A stretch of 32,110 nucleotides of DNA from Fuerstiella sp. (GTDB lineage Bacteria; Planctomycetota; Planctomycetia; Planctomycetales; Planctomycetaceae), in the NCBI GenBank assembly GCA_029941865.1, contig JAPYTO010000054.1:1-32110 (forward strand), in the 5' to 3' direction. The position numbers were made by a program, and so were the translations under genes. Of the stretch, positions 11,708-22,858 are shown one piece after another. The notes beneath the pieces are model-generated. The model did not search any database. It worked only from the letters and a program-made list of their open reading frames with translations, and was not told the DNA's origin. The first letter of the stretch is position 1, and each line of letters opens with the position of its first letter.

Positions 11708-11881
11708 ACGTGTGACGCCACCAACAATTTTCAGAATAGTGGCCAGGAACCTGCGGCGCAATGCGAACGAGTGCATGGTCAACCCTGAATTCGGGCGTTG
11801 ACTGTTTTTCGCGGGATTGGCGTTGGTCATTTACTCTCCGACGAGCATACGTACTGTACACGAGGGGCGACGAAAGATTTC

Positions 11882-12010
11882 ACCCTCCTTCCAGGAGGGT
11901 CGAGCCTAAGCGAGGGGAGCTTTTTTCGGGCGTTTCCTCACTTGTTGTCGCAAAACTGCACCAACCGCCCTCCGCTCGTTCCTTGCGCCCCTCCCACGTG
12001 GAGGGTGAAA
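11882..12010. repeat. Compound palindromic intergenic repeat
   Basis: This part of the 536-base gap between 11707 and 12244 starts with a hairpin (ACCCTCC, GGAGGGT at 11882-11900) and ends with another (CCCTCC, GGAGGG near 11993-12009). The outer CACCCTCC and GGAGGGTG arms are also complementary over the whole block. GAGGGGAGCTTTTTT near 11914 could act as a terminator after lhgO. The rest of the gap shows no credible gene; a promoter for 12244 probably lies in 12130-12235. Confidence 0.65.
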
Positions 12011-12243
12011 TTGATTGTGGAGATGCCAGTGCCCAGAGAGAGTGTGAAGTCAGAATCGAATGCTCTCCCAGCCTGCCCCCACTCAGCGGACACACCGCGA
12101 CGTTTCAATTGCCTAAAGGTTAGCTGTTCGTTCGAATGGCGATTAACTACACTCTTCAGACGTTGAGCGCTCGACCGAGTTCGGTGAGTCAGGGCTGCTC
12201 TGCACAATCCATCACACGTTCCGTTTAGACTGAGGTTAGTTCG

Positions 12244-21753: not shown

Positions 21754-21765
21754 TCAATGCGGCGA

Positions 21766-22092
21766 CTCACGTATCCGGCTCGCCCAAGGCGAGCGGGGGA
21801 CGTCAATCCCCTGATTCCTGCGCACATTCCGCACGGCAGTTGCCAGGACGCCGACCGCAGAAACATCCCCTTCACAACGCATGAGATCCAAACGTGGGCA
21901 GAAGAACAAAATCCGGGCACTCACGTGTTCGGCTCGTCCAAGGCGAGCGGGGGACGTCTGTCCCCTGATTCCTGCGCACATTCCGCACGGCAGTTGCCAG
22001 GACGCCGTCCGTAGAAACATCCCCTTCACGACGCATGAGATCCAAACGTGAGCGGAAAAACGTAATCCGGGCACTCACGTGCACGGCTCGCC
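21766..22092. repeat. 154-bp tandem twin-hairpin repeats, third unit cut by RAYT
   Basis: Units begin at 21766 and 21920, and a partial one at 22074, exactly 154 bases apart. They share the two adjacent hairpins of the array at 1-307 (GCTCGCC/GGCGAGC and GGGGAC/GTCCCC) and a conserved tail including GCACGGCAGTTGCCAGGAC and CGCATGAGATCCAAACGTG. Unit 1 has GTCAATCCCC and unit 2 GCTCGTCC as small hairpin variants. The third unit ends inside hairpin 1 at 22092, where the RAYT stop codon begins. Confidence 0.9.
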
Positions 22093-22686
22093 TTATTTGA
22101 TTCGTCCACCTTCCAGATCCAGTTCTGGAACTTCCGTTGTCCAGATCAATAACGGATATTCCTGATCCAAAACGTATCGAATGGCGGCAAGGACGGCCGC
22201 ATCGTTGGGTAGTTTCCGTTTCGATCCCGACGCCGTCCACCACGTACCACTCACTGGGCGGCCGAAAATTCCGTTCAGTCTTCGGCTTCCGTAACTCTTA
22301 AAGCTCTGTAACAGAGTCGCCGGTTCCGGATCTCCGGGGACGCCCGTTACGATGTGACAGTGATTCGCCATGATGGCCACGGCGAATAACCTCCAACCAC
22401 GAAATCGCCCCGTTTGCTGAAACTGAACAAACAACGCCTCGGCCTGCGGCACATCAATTCGCACTGGGTCTGCTTTCATCCGACTTCGCGTGTGTGCTTC
22501 CAAGGCAGACATGTCCGAATCGTATTCCGTGCCGGGAATGTTGTGACGTACCTCCGGCCCATCCCCATCCCGAACATTGCTTACAAATCCGCGTTTGTCG
22601 CCTGGTAACCAGCTGCCATACATCGTCCACGTCAAAAGCCAGTAGCGGTCACAGACGATCGGGATTTCCTGCTGGCTCGGATTCAT
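22093..22686 (-). CDS. REP-associated tyrosine transposase (RAYT, Y1 HUH family)
   Basis: The 197-aa protein contains the HUH metal-binding motif ANHCHIV (His109 and His111) and a candidate catalytic Tyr171 in AIRYVLDQEYP, the arrangement of IS200/IS605-type Y1 enzymes. The N-terminal TWTMYGSWLPGDKRGFV motif is typical of the RAYT branch rather than of true IS200 TnpA. RAYTs cut and join single-stranded REP hairpins and are thought to spread or maintain REP elements. ATG at 22686 is preferred because the protein core begins just after it; an earlier ATG at 22761 gives 222 aa. The gene appears intact and is bordered on both sides by twin-hairpin repeat units, which are its likely substrate. 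Confidence 0.92.
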   Translation of the reverse strand: MNPSQQEIPIVCDRYWLLTWTMYGSWLPGDKRGFVSNVRDGDGPEVRHNIPGTEYDSDMSALEAHTRSRMKADPVRIDVPQAEALFVQFQQTGRFRGWRLFAVAIMANHCHIVTGVPGDPEPATLLQSFKSYGSRRLNGIFGRPVSGTWWTASGSKRKLPNDAAVLAAIRYVLDQEYPLLIWTTEVPELDLEGGRIK

Positions 22687-22790
22687 GATGCAGTATCCGT
22701 CGGGATGATTCTTCTTCCGATCCGATTCTTGAAAGAATCGAAGGAAGATGCCAGTCGTCATTCACGACATAACACCCGGGAAAAACGAAA

Positions 22791-22858
22791 TCCGGGCACT
22801 CACGTGCACGGCTCGCCCAAGGCGAGCGGGGGACGTCAGTCCCCTGATTCCTGCGCAG
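22791..22858. repeat. Twin-hairpin repeat unit upstream of RAYT
   Basis: The head of the repeat is complete here: TCCGGGCACTCACGTGCACG, hairpin 1 (22811-22827) and hairpin 2 (22829-22844). The long tail is missing after CTGCGCA. Together with the array at 21766-22092 it brackets the transposase gene. Confidence 0.9.

Follow-up and report, generated by a model that had tools for sequence, protein, structure and literature searches.

The window, that is, the whole stretch of DNA analyzed here, corresponds to the entire contig C54 (32,110 bp) of the 8.04-Mb genome G000. It carries a RAYT gene and an array of palindromic repeats, placed between two convergent genes, P0002 (lpxB-like by eye) and P0003 (20194–21753); to judge by eye, neither of the genes next to the RAYT is tnpB-like (Table 1). 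In agreement with a preliminary description of this DNA, the RAYT ORF is intact, contains both the HUH and the Tyr motifs, and is bounded by repeats of one family, namely, a tandem repeat with a period of 154 bp at 21765–22092 (2.1 copies, 90% matches) and, on the other side of the gene, a repeat that is 94% identical over 22789–22857.

Table 1. Coordinates of the RAYT gene and of the associated repeats in the window.
Feature	Position	Strand	Details
Second array at contig edge	23–307	+	z 23–50, y 144–171 (window subfamily); z 175–202, decayed y 280–307
Decayed inverted REP y	21760–21784	-	Array left edge, shortly after the stop of the 20194–21753 gene
REPIN 1	21788–21938	+	z 21788–21815, 95-nt spacer, inverted y 21911–21938; layout common to dispersed copies
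REPIN 2	21942–22092	+	z 21942–21969, 95-nt spacer, inverted y 22065–22092; abuts RAYT stop codon
RAYT (TnpA_REP-like, Y1 HUH) gene	22093–22761	-	222-codon ORF
39-nt direct repeat of 22054–22092	22779–22817	-	38/39 identical
Tag-to-tag REP pair upstream of RAYT	22790–22848		y 22790–22817 (-), CAA, z 22821–22848 (+)

Anatomy of the REPs and REPINs

The elementary repeat is a REP of ~28 nt, consisting of a GGCGAGC tag, a seven-pair stem, a GTCA-type loop, and a GAT end, and occurs in two variants, z (GGCGAGCGGGGGACGTCAGTCCCCTGAT) and y (about GGCGAGCCGGGCACGTCAGTGCCCGGAT). Two inverted REPs with their GGCGAGC tags pointing outward and a 95-nt spacer between them form a REPIN of 151 nt in total, and the 154-bp period is the sum of z, the spacer, the inverted y, and a CAA linker. 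The preliminary description had instead recognized a unit with two adjacent hairpins, of which two full copies and a partial one would lie 3′ of the RAYT. Its “hairpin 1” (GGCTCGCC-CAA-GGCGAGC) is where two outward-facing tags meet, and the two hairpins belong to neighboring REPs of two adjoining units, so that a single long twin-hairpin element was rejected. With the period read in this way, the two complete units stand, whereas the “partial unit” proves to be a full inverted REP y (22065–22092); the identity indeed ends at 22092, immediately before the stop codon that starts at 22093. Similarly, the repeat reported on the 5′ side of the gene is related to the others but is a tag-to-tag REP pair with short spacer remnants rather than a full unit. 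The RAYT is bracketed by direct copies of REP y and its tail, which constitute the 39-nt repeats.

REPIN 2 is 91% identical to REPIN 1. A further unit of the same subfamily, overlooked in the preliminary description, is located at 23–171, 21.6 kb from the RAYT array, and the 3 full window units are mutually 88% to 91% identical. The conserved tail of about 100 bases noted earlier is the spacer, and its conservation holds among these 3 units but not beyond them: the 4 window units share a mean identity of 57%, and 65% at most, with 16 dispersed units (units L131 and L126_125, the latter with a run of N, were omitted from this comparison). On these identities, the window array forms a separate subfamily. 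The contig break of the assembly falls within the second array, where C54 starts, and contig C384 ends in a REP. The possibility that the RAYT array is an assembly artifact was rejected, as C54 is collinear with the congener G001 to its left and right.

Comparison with Rfam at gathering scores yielded no match within the window. Elsewhere in the contig, at 11877–12011, two arms, ATTTCACCCTCC.../...GGAGGGTGAAAT, separated by 83 nt form an inverted repeat that is possibly another miniature element; sequence of similar appearance adjoins REPs at loci L030 and L033.

Dispersal of REPs across the genome

Searching with the REP pattern, allowing up to 3 mismatches, we obtained 96 matches in G000 (49 forward and 47 reverse) and 6, 1, 1, 0, 0, 0, and 0 matches in 7 congeners, whereas the reversed pattern, used as a control, matched none of the 8 genomes. 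The congener with 6 matches, G005, has 4 of them on the contig carrying its own RAYT fragment. The repeats thus recur throughout the genome, well beyond chance expectation, and are far from equally represented in genomes lacking this RAYT branch, both of which were at stake in the preliminary description. Of the searches that affect the counts, one scored 40 of its 77 candidates and another, made with the repeat unit, 40 of its 64.

A looser local scan of the 56 G000 regions retrieved around matches outside C54, plus the 2 window arrays, revealed 103 REPs, 25 of them single, including one on C384 that probably continues into the window array; the separate looser pattern applied to the relatives (see below) has further G000 matches on C60 and C164, beyond these regions. 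Among REP neighbors less than 200 nt apart, counted in G000 with the rows of G003 and G005 excluded, 43 of 44 are inverted (23 tag-out and 20 tag-in) and 1 is direct, and the spacer measures 67 to 98 nt in 19 of the 23 tag-out pairs. The REPs of G000 are, in other words, inverted and dispersed as pairs, in the manner of REPINs or BIMEs. Their spacers can be aligned genome-wide, though they are divergent. The units L077, L116, and L117 (contigs C6 and C215) are 88% to 95% identical over the full unit, spacer included, and L094 and L118 (C47 and C242) are 90% identical over the full unit. Given such identities between REPINs of ~150 nt on different contigs, whole long units appear to spread, and the spreading entity would seem to be the whole REPIN.

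This bears on the earlier suggestion that the RAYT mobilizes or amplifies the 154-bp unit. Whole REPINs do seem to spread and other REPIN subfamilies are dispersed, but, with 40 of 64 candidates scored, the exact 154-bp subfamily was found at only 2 sites, both on C54, and probably also where C384 ends; elsewhere, the longest matches to the 154-nt unit span about 100 nt.

The hairpin itself appears to be maintained by compensating changes. Across 64 distinct REPs, which were first found by a pattern naming most of the stem bases, pairing over 5 stem pairs reached 0.881, compared to a maximum of 0.753 in 2000 shuffles that ignore relatedness, and the pair 12–21 exchanges G-C, C-G, and T-G. The classical GTAG or GTGG foot is replaced by the GGCGAGC tag. 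A second dispersed family, composed of GGCAGCCTGCACTACG-type inverted repeats, adjoins single REPs of G000 and was seen at L082, L091, L097, L099, L100, L112, and L115.

The RAYT protein

The window protein falls below the cutoffs of the curated families, with 29.4 bits against NCBIfam REP_Tyr_transpos (NF047646; cutoff 80) and 20.6 bits against Pfam Y1_Tnp (PF01797; cutoff 23), and these models may not cover the RAYT branch found in the window. Residues H134, H136, Y196, and Q200 are invariant in an alignment of 11 sequences; in a larger alignment of 36 sequences, H134 and H136 remain invariant and Y196 and Q200 are conserved at ≥90%. A structural model built with the 36 sequences (4 of 39 loci were omitted due to internal stops) has a mean pLDDT of 84.8, whereas a model computed without an alignment (pLDDT 30) was discarded. 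The top fold match in the PDB is 4er8, a complex of a RAYT with a REP hairpin (E 2.5e-5, probability 1.00, TM 0.41 and 0.53 by query and target, respectively), followed by the ISDra2 and IS608 transposase structures, which places the catalytic HUH and Y1 residues on a predicted REP-transposase fold. The best rows of a PDB sequence search were designed repeat proteins, judged to be chance matches, and IS200 2f4f was reached at E 0.4 only. Because the first 30 residues have low pLDDT (block means 40–51), the more likely start of the RAYT is M26 (22093–22686). The tyrosine motif of the window protein is YVLDQ (Y---Q), with P three residues later.

G000 contains one copy of this RAYT, and the next protein match is 28% identical. 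None of the 5 other Y1 matches of the genome is on a contig with a listed REP match, and these genes were rejected as drivers of the REPs on this ground. The RAYT is a domesticated transposase gene and probably spreads copies of the paired palindromic repeats through the genome.

A mainly planctomycete branch near class 3

In a tree of 54 rows, 35 rows, including the window protein, form a mainly planctomycete branch that splits from 19 class-3-like rows, among them Acidobacteria, with an SH-aLRT support of 99. Class 3 TnpA_Y1 proteins are RAYT-like and found mainly in Planctomycetes and Acidobacteria; they have atypical, sometimes numerous, flanking hairpins, a W[TA] motif, a tyrosine motif related to that of class 1 but of the form Y----Q, and a CnGA foot, and atypical REPs devoid of GT[AG]G are ascribed to classes 2.6 and 3 (all from the parts of PMC6006769 consulted). 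The window system resembles class 3 in its planctomycete host, atypical hairpins, W[TA] motif, and class 1-related tyrosine motif (PMC6006769), and the Solibacter locus L192, which is class-3-like, also has GGCGAGC-tagged hairpins. By contrast, the window protein has Y---Q rather than Y----Q, its REPs have GGCGAGC rather than CnGA, and it falls in a separate clade, setting it apart from class 3 as defined in PMC6006769. The tyrosine motif alone cannot separate the two, because at least 7 of the 35 rows of the window branch have the Y----Q spacing of class 3. Judging from the tree and motifs, the RAYT appears to belong to a planctomycete branch near class 3 of PMC6006769.

The closest relative of the RAYT is L143 (74% identical), and a sequence identical to REP z lies downstream of the L143 RAYT. 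The MAG containing L143 is labeled Candidatus Kuenenia, which may reflect either mislabeling or transfer. At L047 and L150, which are one locus, the RAYT frame has no stop codon of its own, reads through the adjoining REPIN, and continues into a gene that is lysyl-tRNA-synthetase-like by eye.

Association of the RAYT branch with REPs in relatives

We applied a looser REP pattern, written after the REPs beside several of these RAYTs were known, to 58 relatives, including G000. At least 10 REP matches were found in 6 of the 11 branch-positive genomes (G000 included) versus 1 of the 47 others (Fisher 7e-5), where branch-positive denotes a RAYT match at E ≤ 1e-30, a threshold chosen after the table was seen. 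The other 5 branch-positive genomes have just 1 to 5 matches, compared to 0 to 3 for the reversed control; G028 (10 matches) and G004 (8) match the pattern and have only weak RAYT matches; and the threshold places G031 (no REP match) and G039 (2) among the negatives.

Flanks were tested at 32 of 67 named loci, with distant, fragment, and some contig-edge loci excluded. A tagged hairpin lies within 300 nt of the RAYT at 25 of the 32 loci, and on both sides at 16, and the density of tagged hairpins is 3.86 per kb near the RAYT versus 0.32 per kb far from it. A common repeat is shared by the near flanks at 28 of 29 testable loci, by the far flanks at 1 of 26 (both sets being those of the 32 loci that are long enough), and in 24 of 87 cases when flanks are exchanged from one locus to another. 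At L148, tandem REPINs are present on both sides of the RAYT, in a layout like that of the window. The configuration of the window, a single RAYT flanked by REPs that recur in the genome, is that of a REPtron.

The relatives also weaken two further suggestions of the preliminary description. Tag-out pairs beside their RAYTs measure 62 to 185 nt (13 pairs) and, according to the part of PMC3733652 consulted, REP dimers have their tags outside or inside, spacers of 20 to 100 bp in most cases, and a tendency to form clusters, so that the window unit can hardly be called unusually long. Likewise, insertion of the gene precisely at a hairpin is poorly reconciled with the varying distance that separates the matched end of the gene and the next REP in relatives, namely, 12, 14, 17, 21, and 49 nt.

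Sites without the RAYT and origin of the locus

A comparison of sites with and without the RAYT revealed that, in G001 and G007, the homologues of P0002 and P0003 are adjacent, with neither RAYT nor REPs between them; P0003 is 91% to 92% identical in the 2 genomes, which are also devoid of matches to the RAYT and to the REP pattern genome-wide. The aligned blocks are separated by 27 nt in G001 versus 1139 nt in G000 at the RAYT site. At the second array, C384 and C54 are neighbors in G001, with 78 nt between the blocks. The flanks of L077 align to G001 on both sides (382 nt versus 40 nt between them), which fits a third empty site, although not with base precision, and those of L116 align on one side only.

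We consider it highly probable (about 0.9) that the locus is an ordinary REPtron, in which one RAYT resides in a small tandem cluster of cognate REPINs, the RAYT likely spreading the REPINs and the array likely arising by local duplication. The hairpin, the pair layout, the genome-wide spread, the link to the RAYT, and the empty sites emerge directly from the sequence comparisons. In the proposed mechanism, a single-stranded REP would fold so that the GGCGAGC tag lies at the foot of its hairpin; the RAYT would bind the tag and the hairpin, and Y196, assisted by H134, H136, and Q200 around a metal, would cut and rejoin DNA next to the REP; tag-out REP pairs, that is, whole REPINs of ~150 nt with their spacer, would thereby spread genome-wide. 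We infer binding, cleavage, present activity, and mobility, as well as the reading of the GGCGAGC tag and hairpin and the spreading of REPINs, by analogy with systems such as the E. coli TnpA_REP, which requires GTAG and cuts single-stranded REP at CT but leaves the inverted strand uncut (PMC8266576, in part). Finally, the tandem array would arise by local duplication of one REPIN with its linker, through replication or recombination between near-identical units. Local duplication is the simplest account of the tandem growth, as the array units are most closely related to one another and to the unit located 21.6 kb from them.

Alternatively, and close to the reading of the preliminary description, the RAYT itself might have grown the array by copying the REPIN and linker beside itself. 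The mutual identity of the 3 full units at 2 sites 21.6 kb apart, the other REPINs that seem to have spread whole across contigs, and the tandem REPINs at RAYTs of relatives such as L148 are compatible with this, although we rate it as rather improbable; against it, the longest matches beyond C54 and C384 cover ~100 of 154 nt (40 of 64 candidates scored), and recombination or slippage gives tandem duplication without a RAYT.

A less probable reading holds that the RAYT and one flanking REP move as an IS200/IS605-like unit, in which a segment of 725 bp (22093–22817), lying between two identical junctions just before GGCGAGC, would be excised or inserted as a single-stranded circle. The 39-nt direct repeats that bracket the RAYT, the empty sites in G001 and G007, and the repeat shared by near flanks in almost all testable relatives would fit such a unit, as would the Y---Q motif, which is that of IS200 transposases (PMC6006769, in part). 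However, IS200/IS605 elements would be expected as several near-identical whole copies with fixed ends, and G000 has one copy; the spacing between gene and REP is inconstant among relatives; of the 31 loci with a flank repeat, 10 have the best one in inverted orientation; and acquisition or loss by recombination also accounts for the empty sites. Equally improbable, in our estimate, is that a Y---Q RAYT recognizing GGCGAGC hairpins instead of GTAG still moves itself with a flanking REP and is thus semi-autonomous; if true, such a self-moving RAYT would be a living link that connects IS200 elements with domesticated REPtrons as an intermediate.

That the repeats are selected transcription terminators or mRNA 3′-end stabilizers, with the RAYT as a bystander, is very improbable, since the position between convergent genes, common for REPs (PMC3733652, in part), is outweighed by the lack of REPs at the same gene pair in G001 and G007 and by REP numbers that track RAYT presence.

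Relationship to known REPtrons

The REPtron reading gains context from the published systems, compared here through excerpts of the cited papers. Pseudomonas fluorescens SBW25 likewise has inverted REP pairs, tandem clusters of near-identical REPINs including flanking sequence next to each RAYT, one cluster per RAYT, and many single and paired copies elsewhere (PMC3116915). It differs in that next-neighbor distances peak at 71, 110, and 184 bp, whereas the full unit of G000 is 151 nt, and in that 1,422 repeats were tallied there, as opposed to about 100 REPs, with a GGCGAGC tag, in G000 (PMC3116915). The E. coli REPtron also combines one RAYT with two REP variants (Y and Z2) arranged as inverted pairs and in tandem BIMEs, but its REPs have a GTAG foot and a bulged stem in place of the GGCGAGC tag (PMC6006769 and PMC8266576), and its class 2 protein has Y---NP, unlike YVLDQ with P three residues later (PMC6006769). 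With the IS200/IS605 elements of class 1, the window system shares the HUH/Y1 fold, Y---Q, and hairpins on both sides, whereas it has a single-copy RAYT, dispersed miniature repeats, and neighbors that do not look tnpB-like. REP ends often supply stop codons, according to the part of PMC3733652 consulted.

In excerpts of PMC3733652 and PMC6006769, the only papers retrieved for planctomycete REPs, we found no description of the window RAYT branch or its REP; a wider literature search retrieved no further paper naming planctomycetes, and 10 of the 65 papers matched by a text search for the GGCGAGC palindrome were all unrelated. The REPtron type is already known, and the window case is a representative of it from a little-studied planctomycete branch. 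It presents the full REPIN-RAYT anatomy, comprising the RAYT, its cognate REPs, REPINs, and empty sites in congeners, next to the barely described class 3, and its GGCGAGC tag makes it useful for testing how hairpins are selected by RAYTs where the foot is not GTAG.
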